57,411 nucleotides of DNA from Candidatus Poseidoniales archaeon. GTDB lineage: Archaea > Thermoplasmatota > Poseidoniia > Poseidoniales > Poseidoniaceae. Within the stretch, counting starts at the first letter, position 1. The number at the start of each line of letters is the position of its first letter. The position numbers and the translations under genes were made by a program. Positions 30,486 through 37,103 of the stretch are shown here, piece by piece. The notes beneath the pieces are model-generated. The model was not told the DNA's origin, did not search any database, and saw nothing but the letters and a program-made list of their open reading frames with translations. The stretch lies in assembly GCA_003602485.1 (NCBI GenBank), contig QQSD01000011.1, positions 1-57,411 of the forward strand, in the 5' to 3' direction.

Positions 30486-32144
30486 ATGCGGTTTGTGAGC
30501 ACCTTCCTCATTGCGACCACGCTTCTCCTCTTGCTTCCACTTCATACGGCTGCTGAAGAGTGGTCAATGGACTGGCAAGTTGACCTGGGAGATGGCTACA
30601 TCACGACCTCGCCCGTGATGTTCAACGAACATCTCTTTGTTCGAACGTCTGGGTTTTGGACTGGGGAAGAGCGACCTCAAGTATTCTCGTTGACCACTCA
30701 AGGAATTGAACGATGGAATCGAACCAGCCCGACAACGATTCAGCACGACCTCTCTCCACTGCAACCTGTTTCAAGCGGACAGGGCGAATGTGGGAACTGG
30801 CCGGACCTCTTGTTGATTGGTTGGGCAGATGGCGTGATTGAAGCGGTTCACCCGTCCAACGGTTCACTTGCATGGTCAGCAACTTCTTCGGTCAACGGAT
30901 GGGGCATCACTGGAGCCATGGCTCTGGACGGAGACCATGTAATCGTCCCGACAAGGAACGGAATGCAACGCCATTGCCTCTCCGATGGAACATTGGACTT
31001 CTCTACGAACCTTTCCTTGGGTTGGAGGAATGGAGTTCTTGCTACCCCAGATGGTTACTGGCAGGGCGACGAGCAGGGCCGCTTGTGGATGGTGAATCGA
31101 AACGGAAGTCTCGGACCTTCCGTTGATTTTGGTGGCTCCATACGTCACGCCCCTCTAGCGGTTCCAACTGGCTTACTCCTACATGTTCAATATCCGATGG
31201 AAAGCAAGATCATGCACCTTGAAACCAACACCCTGGCCACCACCACCCTCCTCATTTCCGGGCCGTCTCCCGCCATACCGATTCAGCAAGGAAATCTGTC
31301 AGTATTTGGAGACAGCAAGAGCATCACAAGCGTACGTTGTGAAGCGTCATGCATCATCAACGACCAAATTGCGAGTACGATGAATGGAGAATTCGGTTGG
31401 TCACCATCATCTCAAATCTACGCCCCCATCAATACTCCAGAAGGTGGATGGCTTGTCATACAGGTCAATTCGCAGGGCAGTTTTGTGTCCAACTCAACAT
31501 TCACTACCGAGCATGATGGCTACGGCACGGCAGCTCCAGCCTTCGGAGCATCATCTCTGTTCCTCGGTAACGACGCGGGGTGGCTCATGGCTCATACGAC
31601 CTCATCTTCAACAGAGGATGCACCAGACTATGATTGGACTCCGTTGCTGGGTGCTATGCTCATTATCATCTTCTCTACAGTGCTCGCAGTCCTCACTCGC
31701 TCAAATGGGAGTGAGTGGGGCCTTCGACTGTTTGCCATCATGGTACTTTCGTTGTCGCTTCTCTTGCTACCTGATGTATCTCAGCAATGGTCCGAACGAC
31801 TGCCTGCGGTCAACGAGCCAACAGCTCAAGGGTCATGGGATTCCTCATGGCCGGAATCATGGCTTGGAACACAAGTCGTGGTAGTTGACTTTGGAGAAGA
31901 AAACAAGGTCACGCTTGGAGGCTTCTTAGGTCACGACACCGTTGAATCGTTAACCCAAGCCGCTTTGGAAGAGGCTGGGCTCCTTGCGGAAATCGAGCAA
32001 ACAGACCTCGGCCCCTATCTGATCTCCATTGACGGGCAAAGCGGTGGAGGCTGGGAATATTTTGTTGATGGGGAACGGGGCGTCCTGGCGATTGATTCTG
32101 CGGGCGTCGAGTCAACCACAATACTCCATTGGCGCATGGTCTGA
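30486..32144 (+). CDS. Secreted PQQ-like propeller with two TM helices and C-terminal DUF4430 (transcobalamin-like) domain
   Basis: 552 aa. A signal peptide (about 1-23) is followed by a WD/PQQ-like propeller (DGVIEAVHPSNGSLAWS, WQGDEQGRLWMVN, ending FLGNDAGWLMAH). Two TM helices lie at about 382-403 and 409-427. The C-terminal domain at about 460-552 ends WEYFVDGERGVLAIDSAG then a strand with HWRM, the pattern of DUF4430, which is homologous to the beta domain of intrinsic factor and transcobalamin. This topology puts both the propeller and DUF4430 outside the cell. GGAGTGA at 4 bases, five bases after gatE, marks the start. The neighbour is an ECF-type S component, so binding of a corrinoid or similar ligand for import is inferred. 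Confidence 0.78.
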   Translation: MRFVSTFLIATTLLLLLPLHTAAEEWSMDWQVDLGDGYITTSPVMFNEHLFVRTSGFWTGEERPQVFSLTTQGIERWNRTSPTTIQHDLSPLQPVSSGQGECGNWPDLLLIGWADGVIEAVHPSNGSLAWSATSSVNGWGITGAMALDGDHVIVPTRNGMQRHCLSDGTLDFSTNLSLGWRNGVLATPDGYWQGDEQGRLWMVNRNGSLGPSVDFGGSIRHAPLAVPTGLLLHVQYPMESKIMHLETNTLATTTLLISGPSPAIPIQQGNLSVFGDSKSITSVRCEASCIINDQIASTMNGEFGWSPSSQIYAPINTPEGGWLVIQVNSQGSFVSNSTFTTEHDGYGTAAPAFGASSLFLGNDAGWLMAHTTSSSTEDAPDYDWTPLLGAMLIIIFSTVLAVLTRSNGSEWGLRLFAIMVLSLSLLLLPDVSQQWSERLPAVNEPTAQGSWDSSWPESWLGTQVVVVDFGEENKVTLGGFLGHDTVESLTQAALEEAGLLAEIEQTDLGPYLISIDGQSGGGWEYFVDGERGVLAIDSAGVESTTILHWRMV

Positions 32145-32185
32145 GGTAGGGAATCCTCAAGGAGGCCGCCCTCCTCGGCTCGTTT

Positions 32186-32845
32186 ATGTTCCAAGCATTC
32201 GGTGTCCACGGCCCCGAATTGACTCCTGTCGCCGATTTGGTAATCGACGTCGCCTTGGTGGTCTTGGCCTTCGGCTTTTTGATCACTGCTCCCCGCTCTA
32301 CTCGCTATGATGCGGCTCTCCTCGGTACGATGGTGGTTGCTGTAACCGCCCTTCGAGTATTCATGCAACCATTGCCCAACGTCCAACCCGTCACGGTAGC
32401 CGCCCTTTTGGTTGGGGCCCAACTTGGGGCGCGCAGGGGCGTTGCCTTTGCCATCTTGGTCACCCTTCTTTCCAACATGCTCATCGGAGACGGCTGGTGG
32501 ACTCTGTTCCAAGCAGCAGGCTGGAGTTTAGTGGCCGTTTTGGGCTCACGACTTTCACTCATCAAGAACGGTGATTTCAACCACGGACAACTCTATCTTG
32601 CCGCCATTGGTTCTGCATTCCTGTTTGGATTCATTGCATCGCTCTCGATTCTCACGCCAGCGATGAGTTGGACTGATTTTGTCATCTACCTCGCACATGG
32701 AATCCCCTTTGACACGCTGCACGCACTGGGTAATCTTGCCTTCGCCGTTTGGTTTGGCCCCTTCGTGTACCGTCATCTCGGCGGTTTGGAATCGTCCAAT
32801 ACGTTCGAAGAATCGGTTGTGGAGCACCATGTCATCAACGGATAA
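32186..32845 (+). CDS. ECF transporter S-component-like membrane protein
   Basis: 219 aa with about six hydrophobic helices (VIDVALVVLAFGFLI; DAALLGTMVVAVTALRVF; VTVAALLVGAQLGARRG; FAILVTLLSNMLIG; LYLAAIGSAFLFGFIA; FDTLHALGNLAFAVWFGPF). The loop LLVGAQLGARRGVAFA and the conserved-looking GDGWWTLFQ match the compact S components that confer substrate specificity on energy-coupling factor vitamin transporters. The ECF ATPase and T subunits are not in the window. It follows the DUF4430 protein by 41 bases, and that pairing suggests vitamin (possibly cobalamin) uptake. The family assignment is by pattern and is moderately sure. Confidence 0.68.
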   Translation: MFQAFGVHGPELTPVADLVIDVALVVLAFGFLITAPRSTRYDAALLGTMVVAVTALRVFMQPLPNVQPVTVAALLVGAQLGARRGVAFAILVTLLSNMLIGDGWWTLFQAAGWSLVAVLGSRLSLIKNGDFNHGQLYLAAIGSAFLFGFIASLSILTPAMSWTDFVIYLAHGIPFDTLHALGNLAFAVWFGPFVYRHLGGLESSNTFEESVVEHHVING

Positions 32846-33191
32846 TGCTCCTACCATGGCGCTCATCGTTCGAGAAGACCTCAACCTCTCTCCGGGCAAA
32901 ACTGCGGCTCAATGCGCTCACGCTGCTGTAGAAATCACTCTTGTTGCACGCCGACAGTCCAAACGCCTCTACCAGGCGTGGCGAGAAAACGGTGGGCGTA
33001 AAATCGTCCTCAATGCAGAAAACATGGTGGCCCTCGACGACATCGTTGCTGATATCTCTCACGGAGTCATTTGGCACTTGGTCAAAGATGCAGGGCACAC
33101 TGAAGTCGCTCCCGGCACGGTGACTGTGTTGGGATTGCTGGGGCCGCGCCGAACCGTTGATCGTCTCGTGGGACATCTTGAGACACTCTGA
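32829..33191 (+). CDS. pth2: Peptidyl-tRNA hydrolase Pth2, copy 1
   Basis: Releases tRNA from stalled peptidyl-tRNA. About 120 aa. The Pth2 motifs are LIVREDLNLSPGKTAAQCAH with the conserved Lys, VLNAENMVALDDI, and KDAGHTEVAPGTVTVLGLLGP with the catalytic Asp. The ATG at 32829 has GGAG four bases before it and overlaps the S-component stop by 17 bases. An ATG at 32856 would give the shorter classic N-terminus. A second, divergent copy follows directly. It differs at loop positions (SPGK instead of MGKGK), so it may be specialised. Confidence 0.92.
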   Translation: MSSTDNAPTMALIVREDLNLSPGKTAAQCAHAAVEITLVARRQSKRLYQAWRENGGRKIVLNAENMVALDDIVADISHGVIWHLVKDAGHTEVAPGTVTVLGLLGPRRTVDRLVGHLETL

Positions 33192-33269
33192 GGGATGATT
33201 GTGGGGCTACGTTCTTTTCTTCATCGACTCACAGCCCCACGGCCTTCGTTCAGTTTCTCTGGAACATCG

Positions 33270-33617
33270 GTGAAATTAGTTTGTGTTGTGAATCAAGGAT
33301 TGAAGATGGGGAAGGGCAAACTTGCTGCTCAAGTCGGCCATGCTTCGGTTGAAGCTTTCCTCAAAACGGGGGTAAGTCATCCACAACACGTTGAGGCTTG
33401 GCTGGCACAGGGACAGAAAAAAATCTGCGTAAAAGTTCCAGACGATGCTGCCATGAATGAACTCCAAAAACAAGCCTCGCAGCGTTCAATCCCCTCTCTT
33501 ATCGTTCGTGATGCTGGCCATACACAAATTCCCAGGGGGTCCCAAACAGTTCTTGCATTGGGACCCTATGATGAAGAGGCTCTTGACCTCCTCACTGGGG
33601 ATTTGAAACTTCTTTGA
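33270..33617 (+). CDS. pth2: Peptidyl-tRNA hydrolase Pth2, copy 2
   Basis: 115 aa, the standard Pth2 length, with LVCVVNQGLKMGKGKLAAQ, CVKVPDDAAMNEL and RDAGHTQIPRGSQTVLALGP. The residues expected for catalysis (Lys in GKGKLAAQ, Asp in RDAG) are present. I use the GTG at 33270 because it yields MKLVCVVNQ, the normal start of archaeal Pth2. The in-frame ATG at 33195 would add 25 basic and aromatic residues with no family match. This copy looks closer to canonical archaeal Pth2 than copy 1. Confidence 0.9.
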   Translation: MKLVCVVNQGLKMGKGKLAAQVGHASVEAFLKTGVSHPQHVEAWLAQGQKKICVKVPDDAAMNELQKQASQRSIPSLIVRDAGHTQIPRGSQTVLALGPYDEEALDLLTGDLKLL

Positions 33618-33657: not shown

Positions 33658-34701
33658 ATGCGCGAACACCCATCGTCCCGCATTGACTTTCGTTCGGATA
33701 CGGTCACGCAGCCAACCAAAGCCATGCGTGAAGCCATGATGAACGCCCCTGTGGGCGACGACGTACTGGGTGACGATATGACCGTCATTGAACTGCAGGA
33801 ACGGGTCGCAGCAATGTTTGGAAAAGAAGCCGGTTTGTTCATCGCTTCTGGTACCATGTCAAATGCCATTGCTCTCAAGACACATACGGTCCCGGGCGAT
33901 GAAATTGTATGCGATAAAACCGCACATATCTACCGCTACGAAGGAGGCGGCTACGCTGCACTTTGTGGCGCCTCCATTGCTCTTGTGGATGGTGAAAAGA
34001 GTCTCATGACTCCCGAGCAGGTCAAGGCCTTAATTCGTAAGGCGGATGGTTCAGGAAGCCACTATCCTAACGGGAGCCTGGTATGTGTAGAAAACACCTC
34101 GAACTTGGGTGGAGGGGCCTGTTATGATGTGGCAACTCTCGATGCGATTGCAGAAGTTGCGAAATCAATGGACTGTAAGACTCATGTTGATGGGGCGCGA
34201 ATTTTCAATGCAGCAATCGCAACGGGCGTGGACGTTGCCCGCATGTGTCAAGCCTACGATTCAGTTTCGATTTGTTTTTCCAAAAGCCTTGGAGCACCCA
34301 TTGGTTCAGTTCTCGTGGGTTCAAATGAATTCATTGCCCAAGCTCATCGATGGCGCAAGATGTTCGGTGGAGGCTGGCGACAAGCTGGTATTCTTGCCGC
34401 TGCATGCCTATATGCGCTCGACCATCACGTAGAGCGTCTCGAGGAAGACCATGAGCGCGCCCGATATATTGCGACTGAACTCAACGCGTTGGATGCCTTC
34501 TCAGTGGATTTGGACACGGTCCAAACTAACATGGTCTACGTTGAATGCAAGCAGCCCGCATCAGAGGTTGCTGAGATTCTCGCTTCTTCGGGAATTGACG
34601 TCTTCGATATCTCTCCCACACATATTCGAATCGTCATTCACCTGCATATTACCGATGAGGATGTCCAAAGCCTCCTTGAGGTATGTGCTTCACAGTTTTG
34701 A
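33658..34701 (+). CDS. ltaE: Low-specificity L-threonine aldolase
   Basis: PLP enzyme cleaving threonine or allo-threonine to glycine and acetaldehyde. 347 aa, a normal length. The motifs are IDFRSDTVTQPTKAMREAM at the start, GDDVLGDD, FIASGTMSNAIAL, ENTSNLGGG, THVDGARIFNAA with the PLP-contacting Asp, and CFSKSLGAPIGSVLVG with the Schiff-base K209. GGGWRQAGILAAAC follows as in the family. It lies after the pth2 pair on the same strand. It may supply glycine or degrade threonine; regulation is not visible. Confidence 0.93.
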   Translation: MREHPSSRIDFRSDTVTQPTKAMREAMMNAPVGDDVLGDDMTVIELQERVAAMFGKEAGLFIASGTMSNAIALKTHTVPGDEIVCDKTAHIYRYEGGGYAALCGASIALVDGEKSLMTPEQVKALIRKADGSGSHYPNGSLVCVENTSNLGGGACYDVATLDAIAEVAKSMDCKTHVDGARIFNAAIATGVDVARMCQAYDSVSICFSKSLGAPIGSVLVGSNEFIAQAHRWRKMFGGGWRQAGILAAACLYALDHHVERLEEDHERARYIATELNALDAFSVDLDTVQTNMVYVECKQPASEVAEILASSGIDVFDISPTHIRIVIHLHITDEDVQSLLEVCASQF

Positions 34702-34736
34702 AGGAACTTCAAATAGGCTCAGCGGTTATATTTCCT

Positions 34737-37103
34737 ATGAGTAGGTCTTCTGAACCCACTGCATGCACCCACAATTTGGCTTCTTCTGAAGAACATCTCG
34801 TTTGCGATTGGTGTCAATCAATTCTCGATTACAGTCCGACAACAGGGTGGTTTGTGCCTCTTATCCCTAGAGAACACGAATATGCAATTTCACTCTTCGG
34901 CGGCCCAACGGTGACTTCACGGCGACGATGGAAATCTCTCTCGGACAACATGCTTGAAACGAAGCATGTTGAATGGGCCCGGCTTTCTGAACATCAAGAC
35001 CCTGTGGCCCATATGCCGTGCAGTGAAGAAGAATTGACGACGTTGGGCGAGACCTATGCTCGCGGAGACCAATTGAGTACATCCCAAGAGCACATACTCT
35101 CGGACGGCATTATTTTTCACGATGGCTCAAAGCTAAAGTATCTCGATCAAACATTGTTTTTGAATGGCGTGGCCCTGTCTAAAATGAAACTCACATCGAT
35201 CCTCCCCATACTCTGTGACCCAGAAGTTCGGAGGGGGTGGGATTTGCCCTCCCTCATCCTTGGTTTGTCTTCGTGTTCACCCCTCAATAATACGGATAAT
35301 TATCAATATCGCTTTGGCCCTCAAGAGACGTTGGCAACACCATACAGACCCCTTGCAGGAATGTTGGATTGGCTCTCGAAACGTGTACGTGTAGACCGGT
35401 CTTTGGTGGAGAAAAAGCACGCCTACCGCGGATACCTTTCCTGGGCTCACGACATCAATCAACGTATCGTTACGGCTCAGCGACGGAGACTGTATGGAGC
35501 ATTCTGCGATGCATTGATGAACCACCCCCAAGGATTGTTTGAGACCTATCAGCGTCCGTGGATGGAAGAATGGCAAGATCTCAAAGAAGCTGAACAAGTT
35601 CCCGAAGTCTTGAATTGGGCATTGAAGACGGACGGGAAATACATCGGTTTGCGCGTTCGAACAAAAGTTGGAAGAACTCGCATCATCAAGGTGCCTCCTC
35701 ACCCAATGCATTGGGCCTATCTGATTTCACTTGCTCTTTCTCCAGTCAACTCCAAGGCAGGCAAACTCCTTCTTGGCCTCCAGCACAATTGGTCCGTCCC
35801 CTACTTGGCCAAGGAAGAACCGAGTAGACCTTTGGTAAAGTCATTGGAATTTTGCCATCAAATCGTTAACGGCCTTCCGGGACATATCCATCTTCAACAT
35901 GCTACCATGCTTGCAGTAGGGAAACTCGGGCACCTCTACCAGGTCAAGGTGGGAGAGGGTCAGCACGGTGCGCCCTACTCGATCGAACATATTCATCGTC
36001 TTGACCGCCAGCGTCATACATCAATTTGCATCCACAGTGGGAATCAAAACACCAAGGTCCCACTCGGTGACGTGATGGGTGGCGTGTTACTTTCGATGGT
36101 GAACGATACGACTGCAAGCGAGAAGATTCCGAGTTTGTGCGAAATAATCTCTGAACATCCGCCTTTTGGATTTCCAGACGCTACGCCGCCACATCATTGG
36201 GTTGAGGCGCTTGACCAACAAGCATTGAATCATCTGAAACACATCGCTCATCACAATCGACCTGTTTGGTTTCGAAACGAAGACCGTGAGTATTTTGACA
36301 TGCAGGGTGATGAAGAAATCCCTCGAAACGCCCGGGGCGTGGGTTTTCACGGGCTCATCAATCGCAATTTTGGGGCTGGAAGGCGACGAGGACTGACCGT
36401 TGAATCGGGCTGGGTTGAGCGGTTTACACATTCCCTTGACATTCATGGGTCCTTTCCTTACAATGATGTTGTTGAAGCATGGCGGGAAACGGTACGCCCC
36501 TACAACCGTGATACAACCCAGGTACGACGGAATCACCCCGGTCGTTTGTACGAGCGACGTCTCCAACGTCACCTTCACCGAATGATGCCTCATCGCCGCC
36601 AAGGTGACGTACATGAGGCTGGGAACATCCGCGATGGTGAGCGACGCTGGGGGCAGGTGTACGCTCGTGTCTGGGAAGTTCTTATCCGCCAGCCAATTGG
36701 TTCCACGATTCGCGTCCCAACCGCTCGAGGAGGAGCTCTTTCCTTCGAACACGCAGGCCTGCTAGTCACGATTCGTGACGGACGCGAGCGGCGCTTTGTC
36801 AATCGGATTGCAAGGGTTTTGGGATACATTCGCAGCGAAGAACATGAAGGGCATGTCACTCACATACGGCGTGACCACCCTCGGCCCGATGCTCGTTTAC
36901 AATTGAGCACGTGGCTGAATGAATTGCAAAAGCAACAAGGTGTCCGAAATGCTCCGCCTCGATGGTGGGATTACATCAACATCATTGCGGCTCCAGCAGA
37001 ATTAGGGCAGCTGAATTGGCAGCTCCACGTTGATTTGACCGACCTTCGGCAGGTGGAGGAAAGCGGTCTCGGAAATCTCTTGATCAATGTTTACGACGGC
37101 TGA
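34737..37103 (+). CDS. 788-aa orphan protein with N-terminal zinc-knuckle-like motif
   Basis: Family not recognised. The N-terminus has a Cys/His set (C-T-H, then CDWC about 13 residues later) that could bind zinc. The rest is a large soluble protein without signal peptide or TM helix, rich in His, Arg and Trp, especially from about 520 to 700 (NHPGRLYERRLQRHLHRM). The centre has alpha/beta stretches such as YIGLRVRTKVGRTRIIKV. No Walker, nuclease or polymerase motif was found by eye. The ATG at 34737 precedes the Cys motif by a few residues; an upstream start overlaps the aldolase gene. Strong positive charge in the C-terminal part is compatible with nucleic-acid binding. The stop overlaps the convergent thioredoxin-like gene by 20 bases. 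Confidence 0.75.
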   Translation: MSRSSEPTACTHNLASSEEHLVCDWCQSILDYSPTTGWFVPLIPREHEYAISLFGGPTVTSRRRWKSLSDNMLETKHVEWARLSEHQDPVAHMPCSEEELTTLGETYARGDQLSTSQEHILSDGIIFHDGSKLKYLDQTLFLNGVALSKMKLTSILPILCDPEVRRGWDLPSLILGLSSCSPLNNTDNYQYRFGPQETLATPYRPLAGMLDWLSKRVRVDRSLVEKKHAYRGYLSWAHDINQRIVTAQRRRLYGAFCDALMNHPQGLFETYQRPWMEEWQDLKEAEQVPEVLNWALKTDGKYIGLRVRTKVGRTRIIKVPPHPMHWAYLISLALSPVNSKAGKLLLGLQHNWSVPYLAKEEPSRPLVKSLEFCHQIVNGLPGHIHLQHATMLAVGKLGHLYQVKVGEGQHGAPYSIEHIHRLDRQRHTSICIHSGNQNTKVPLGDVMGGVLLSMVNDTTASEKIPSLCEIISEHPPFGFPDATPPHHWVEALDQQALNHLKHIAHHNRPVWFRNEDREYFDMQGDEEIPRNARGVGFHGLINRNFGAGRRRGLTVESGWVERFTHSLDIHGSFPYNDVVEAWRETVRPYNRDTTQVRRNHPGRLYERRLQRHLHRMMPHRRQGDVHEAGNIRDGERRWGQVYARVWEVLIRQPIGSTIRVPTARGGALSFEHAGLLVTIRDGRERRFVNRIARVLGYIRSEEHEGHVTHIRRDHPRPDARLQLSTWLNELQKQQGVRNAPPRWWDYINIIAAPAELGQLNWQLHVDLTDLRQVEESGLGNLLINVYDG

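Follow-up and report, generated by a model that had tools for sequence, protein, structure and literature searches.

A putative corrinoid capture-and-uptake gene pair in Poseidoniales: a propeller-DUF4430 surface protein beside a CbrT-like S component

Two adjacent genes of a Candidatus Poseidoniales archaeon probably form a unit for the capture and uptake of corrinoids (vitamin B12) in a B12-auxotrophic marine organism, and the S component of this unit most likely works without a motor. The genes lie in the window, by which we mean the whole stretch of 57,411 nucleotides that was analysed (contig QQSD01000011.1), and encode a 552-aa surface protein and a 219-aa CbrT-like S component, with a gap of 41 bases between them (Table 1). 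Both open reading frames were recovered on the forward strand exactly where the original prediction of this unit had located them, and neither the profile searches nor the conservation survey called for by that prediction contradicted it. The assignment draws on computed domains, fold comparison, homology, the pairing of the genes, the presence of B12-dependent enzymes and an adenosyltransferase, and the absence of CbiC and EcfT matches in searches of the window genome.

Marine Group II archaea are abundant in the ocean, and the pair represents a concrete, testable set of genes for their B12 uptake, the transporter genes for which seem to be unnamed in the literature. If the assignment and the loss of the motor both hold, most Poseidoniales would practise receptor-assisted, ATP-independent vitamin uptake. 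In addition, the order offers a natural comparison of the same S component with an ECF motor (genus g10) and without one, which bears on how solitary S components move their substrate. CbrT itself is already known, as is the prediction of transcobalamin-like B12 scavenging in prokaryotes, which is contained in the available text of Burroughs et al. 2007 (PMC1796856). Four points are apparently new to the literature: the recognition of the pair in Marine Group II, the apparent lack of EcfT in most Poseidoniales, the single EcfT-EcfA-EcfA' protein of g10, and the joining of propeller and DUF4430 seen in the window.

Table 1. Features of the gene pair, in coordinates of the window
Feature	Coordinates	Strand	Description or basis
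552-aa surface protein	30486..32144	+	signal peptide, propeller, two TM helices, DUF4430/transcobalamin-beta-like domain
Probable signal peptide, residues 1-22	30486..30551	+	sequence; model helix 2-16
BamB/PQQ-type beta-propeller, residues 25-372	30558..31601	+	PQQ_2 profile, BamB fold match
Two-helix membrane hairpin, residues 385-407 and 409-438	31638..31799	+	predicted model
DUF4430 domain, residues 460-552, transcobalamin beta-domain fold	31863..32141	+	PF14478 profile, model, fold match
219-aa CbrT-like S component (Pfam DUF6580)	32186..32845	+	profile, PDB sequence match
His8	32207..32209	+	kept in EcfT-less Poseidoniales CbrTs read; unseen in EcfT-bearing archaeal ones
PNVQPVT motif, residues 64-70; N65 and P68 invariant archaeal/Lactobacillales	32375..32395	+	alignment A1
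N97..G103.W105...Q109 motif, all four residues invariant	32474..32512	+	alignment A1
D176..H179..G182 N183 motif, all four residues invariant	32711..32734	+	alignment A1

Propeller and membrane hairpin of the 552-aa protein

An N-terminal PQQ-like propeller, linked by two transmembrane helices to the C-terminal domain, had been predicted, and both features were borne out. The propeller is of the BamB type by profile as well as by fold: the PQQ_2 profile matches the window protein at E 5e-4, which is below the cut-off, and scores 68 bits in an orthologue from another genus (L091), and the best fold matches of the predicted model include BamB. A propeller of the BtuG type was absent among the 50 best fold matches. 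The two helices are adjacent in the model and are joined by a short basic loop, TRSNGSEWGLR. Because this turn between the helices is short and basic, both ends of the protein should be outside, so that the hairpin, as judged from sequence, would leave the propeller and the DUF4430 domain on the exterior of the cell. The propeller may act as a stalk, as a dock, or as a second ligand contact like the toroid of transcobalamin.

A transcobalamin-like DUF4430 domain

The suggested DUF4430/transcobalamin identity of residues 460-552 is supported by family profiles and by the fold. In the window sequence alone the evidence is just suggestive, since its matches to DUF4430 (E 0.014 for the whole protein and 0.0016 for residues 460-552) are both below the Pfam cut-off. 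However, when the window domain and its homologues are taken together, PF14478 recognises 56 of the 61 C-terminal domains with E<=0.01 (the best at 2.8e-10), and orthologues identified by gene order in the sister family reach as much as 48.5 bits (cut-off, 23.8). When the profile of the DUF4430 alignment was compared with PDB sequences, only insignificant matches were returned, with transcobalamin in third place at E 1.3, so fold comparison was used for this domain. The model (pLDDT 88.8) displays a helix (H47-58) followed by two strands (E62-67 and E70-76), that is, a beta-grasp with a hairpin insert. Transcobalamin, haptocorrin, intrinsic factor and the Ruminococcus gnavus protein 3u7z account for all of its 19 best PDB fold matches, after which there is a clear drop, from E 2.1e-3 for the 19th match to 0.055 for the 20th. 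The TM-score against 5no0 is up to 0.66 by query and 0.70 by target.

The domain thus resembles the beta domain of transcobalamin, intrinsic factor and haptocorrin, members of the SLBB superfamily, including the two strands straight after the helix; Burroughs et al. 2007 (PMC1796856) ascribe a hairpin insert at this position to the transcobalamin clade. The transcobalamin beta domain has been crystallised by itself with cyanocobalamin (PMC5599065). In contrast to the transcobalamin proteins, where this domain is partnered by an alpha/alpha toroid, the window protein has no toroid and carries the propeller and the membrane hairpin instead. The same survey, as far as its available text goes, predicts that bacterial transcobalamin-like domains scavenge B12 together with CbiO/CbiQ and includes one Clostridium fusion with a propeller, but it describes there neither Marine Group II archaea nor the loss of CbiQ.

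The CbrT-like S component

The 219-aa protein matches Pfam DUF6580 with 38 bits (cut-off, 27), and its sole match among PDB sequences is CbrT (6FNP chain A, E 5.8e-18, residues 45-194). A search with profile A2 brought the match to 6FNP CbrT to E 4.6e-31 and again recovered no other S component from the PDB. The predicted S component is thereby upheld, but its six helices are not: hydropathy suggests seven membrane segments, with an extra N-terminal helix preceding the six-helix CbrT core. Alignment A1 shows eleven residues that never differ between the archaeal and the Lactobacillales CbrT sequences. A CbrT alignment of 27 rows contained no stretch conserved enough for scanning, and a 10-row alignment served instead. 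Among named genomes, the closest relatives of the protein, at 91% identity, belong to Candidatus Poseidonia of Marine Group II.

ECF-CbrT of Lactobacillus delbrueckii, the S component of which is homologous to the 219-aa protein, has been shown to bind and import cobalamin and cobinamide (PMC5997447). Unlike in that system, no EcfT was detected in the window genome, the DUF4430 domain is part of a propeller fusion with a transmembrane hairpin as its anchor, and the S component has the additional N-terminal segment with the conserved His8. This histidine is found in 97 of 98 aligned Poseidoniales CbrTs (the remaining one has a gap at this position) and both g10 CbrTs have Gln, a pattern that amounts to a single correlated change on the tree and is not independent evidence.

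Pfam PF20221 (DUF6580, 'unknown') covers the CbrT-like S components of Marine Group II and their relatives with 38 to 66 bits and is probably a family of cobalamin S components. In one genome, the CbrT gene is interrupted (L189:4710-5652, G009:C93), with residues 1-101 and 132-205 matching and some 300 extra bases between them.

Conservation of the gene pair

We detected CbrT in 56 of the 59 genomes that comprise the window's and its relatives, in all 15 genera, and the gene pair across both families of Poseidoniales. Among 80 related contigs from named Poseidoniales genomes, 79 have the DUF4430 partner directly upstream of CbrT, the partner being clipped by the contig end in some of them, and a single contig (L167) is the exception. 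The two genes are therefore conserved as neighbours, as would be expected of the unit originally proposed, and the association extends to Lactobacillales. There, plasmids of L. plantarum, L. intestinalis and E. raffinosus have DUF4430 directly upstream of cbrT. L. reuteri shows the same arrangement with a cbrT that is fragmented and lacks annotation, and in E. faecalis and Lactococcus the two genes fall inside the same few kilobases. These clusters usually also hold the genes for AdoCbl-dependent ribonucleotide reductase (nrdJ) and adenosyltransferase. The published cluster of L. delbrueckii has the order nrdJ-cbrS-cbrT-pduO; given the location of DUF4430 by or near cbrT on the Lactobacillales plasmids, its cbrS, by cluster position, probably encodes a DUF4430 protein.

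Most members of the sister family have only a short gene of 150-220 aa in the space from GatE to CbrT; it represents DUF4430 without a propeller, either as a lipoprotein or with a transmembrane anchor. As the propeller is mostly gone in this family and DUF4430 stays by CbrT, the constant partner is the DUF4430 part. This arrangement bears on the idea that the 552-aa protein is a BamB-like scaffold for envelope assembly or adhesion that came to lie beside a transporter gene by chance. Such a reading could appeal to the BamB match of the propeller and to the flanking genes (MCM and GatE upstream, two PTH2 genes and a beta-eliminating PLP lyase downstream), which are housekeeping genes unrelated to B12. 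We nevertheless regard it as highly improbable, both because the sister family retains DUF4430 next to CbrT and because a separate propeller gene adjoins DUF4430 in the ECF-CbrT operon of other Thermoplasmatota. A search of the window for regulatory RNAs yielded no cobalamin riboswitch and only a single tRNA.

The ECF motor: present, fused or apparently missing

In many Thermoplasmatota outside Poseidoniales, CbrT is encoded together with its motor. In 13 of 20 loci from CbrT-bearing genomes outside the order, the gene order is DUF4430 (or a propeller gene), EcfT, fused EcfA-EcfA' and CbrT; several of the remaining seven loci are clipped by contig ends. A separate propeller gene often precedes DUF4430 in these operons, which suggests that the propeller belongs to the system. 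Six loci have a separate protein of 545-665 aa beside DUF4430 or replacing it; those of L197, L198 and L202 are PQQ_2 propellers, and those of L199, L204 and L205 are similar by size and start only. In the window's class outside Poseidoniales, CbrT was found in one of eight genomes (G131), with a DUF4430 gene downstream.

In genus g10, a single 653-aa EcfT-EcfA-EcfA' fusion is encoded between the DUF4430 gene and CbrT (L082:4175-6136, L090:3222-5183, G054, G297, G321 and G396). The only PDB matches of its first part, albeit weak ones (E ~0.09), are to EcfT, and this part aligns with other EcfTs; the remainder consists of two ABC ATPase domains. Across the remaining Poseidoniales, DUF4430 is joined directly to CbrT, as though the middle had been excised; members of the window's family carry the propeller as a fusion in front of DUF4430, matching the gene order elsewhere.

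A search with PF02361, the EcfT model of Pfam, gave no match, but this model also misses the EcfT of g10, so we discounted its negative result and built a profile from 15 Thermoplasmatota EcfT sequences (A5). This profile matched 26 of 30 CbrT-bearing Thermoplasmatota genomes outside the window's class. It detected the EcfT of g10 with E values of 1e-53 to 1e-59, and EcfTs at a greater distance in other genomes down to ~1e-7. Absence here means that a genome is not among the matches listed, and counts were made by hand from the match tables. Two matching sequences, both from the same Thermoplasmatota family, contain one in-frame TGA each (G251:C51:12368-13042 and G359:C22:4218-4895). Among 119 CbrT-bearing Poseidoniales genomes, a credible EcfT was present only in g10 (six of six sampled); the other 113 yielded just two weak fragments, at E 1.5e-4 (with internal stops) and E 3.6e-4. 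EcfT was found neither in the window genome (~80% complete), by PF02361 or A5, nor by A5 in the single-contig genome G073, which has CbrT. Generic ABC ATPases occur in all genomes and are the only ones in the window genome. In the latter, at ~80% completeness, an S component was found but not the EcfT and EcfA/EcfA' of a complete ECF transporter, which is the situation of solitary S components. Of the 'ECF-type' label originally given to the protein, the S component holds and the motor is apparently missing, no credible EcfT having been found in these genomes.

It is conceivable that the same proteins import the same ligand at the expense of ATP, the S component being served by a diverged EcfT missed by the profiles or by a motor borrowed from another ABC transporter. 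The motor fusion retained by g10 in the same locus, the ubiquity of generic ABC ATPases and the escape of the g10 EcfT from the Pfam model all speak for this option, and a strongly diverged EcfT could escape A5 as well. Still, a profile sensitive enough for both g10 and more distant EcfTs recovered none that is credible in other Poseidoniales, including G073, and we consider an ATP-driven S component unlikely. With the EcfT-bearing operon present elsewhere and EcfT credible only in g10 within the order, the window pair is probably a motor-less uptake unit.

In the CbrT tree, the EcfT-less Poseidoniales form one clade (support 100/98) with g10 alongside. Given the long branches of this tree and the taxonomic position of g10 in family f2, the absence of EcfT may reflect one loss, several losses or transfer.

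Requirement for B12 and alternative importers

Of 59 genomes, 55 (the window's among them) contain B12-binding domains, in ORFs whose sizes fit the mutase small subunit and MetH, and 57 contain an adenosyltransferase. In contrast, CbiC, a marker of corrinoid ring synthesis and the sole synthesis gene searched, was found in none of the 59. These archaea need vitamin B12 but apparently cannot make it, in line with what the original prediction would require. The available text of PMC9296465 likewise describes Marine Group II as B12-auxotrophic; for the B12 transport proteins of this group, which it does not name there, it refers to a genome paper of 2012. The FecCD/BtuC permease of the BtuFCD importer had no match in the window genome. 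Strong FecCD permeases are patchily distributed and confined to a minority of Poseidoniales, with 8 of the 59 genomes having one (among them L061-L066).

The pair might instead import another ligand, such as a different vitamin or a tetrapyrrole. The specificity of S components may change within one fold, and 6FNP is empty, so that, in the available text of PMC5997447, no ligand-bound structure defines the cobalamin-binding residues of CbrT. Moreover, since the archaea with SLBB proteins often produce B12 themselves, Burroughs et al. 2007 considered, in the available part of their survey, that these proteins might serve to collect a different metabolite (PMC1796856). The archaea studied here, however, lack CbiC and possess B12 enzymes, CbrT is the only S component recovered from the PDB, and DUF4430 has the transcobalamin fold. 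A ligand other than a corrinoid therefore has only a slight chance of being the true substrate.

Proposed mechanism and comparison with known systems

For corrinoid uptake by the pair, we infer the ligand, its hand-over, motor-free transport and the role of the propeller, as follows. The 552-aa protein would be held in the membrane by its hairpin, with the propeller and the DUF4430 domain exposed outside. The DUF4430 domain, beside the S component, would bind corrinoid at the presumably low supply of seawater and hand it to the neighbouring CbrT-type protein, which would carry it across the membrane, most likely alone, like BtuM and solitary BioY. Intracellular adenosylation and binding to enzymes would then retain the vitamin inside. 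Chances appear about even that most Poseidoniales stripped an ancestral ECF-CbrT of its ATP motor, leaving a solitary S component that receives its substrate from a tethered transcobalamin-like domain, with the new N-terminal helix and His8 possibly making up for some of what was lost.

Escherichia coli has no ECF module, and BtuM supports its uptake of B12 (PMC6072759). BtuM and solitary BioY are S-component-type proteins of ECF-less organisms that are reported to transport without a module (PMC6072759), and no ECF module was found in the window genome either. Unlike them, the window protein belongs to the CbrT family and has a paired capture protein; no evidence for cysteine ligation of the BtuM type was seen in it. 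In Bacteroides, the propeller protein BtuG captures B12 at the cell surface on behalf of a transporter, according to the available texts of PMC6143338 and PMC10404256. The window propeller, in contrast, is BamB-like, and the domain with a B12-binding protein fold is the separate DUF4430 part.

Genes downstream of the pair

An 806-aa ORF without a Pfam match at E<=0.001 is located at 34683-37103 of the window. The PTH2 genes are arranged in tandem (32856-33191 and 33195-33617), and the first of them starts a few bases after the stop codon of the S component gene.
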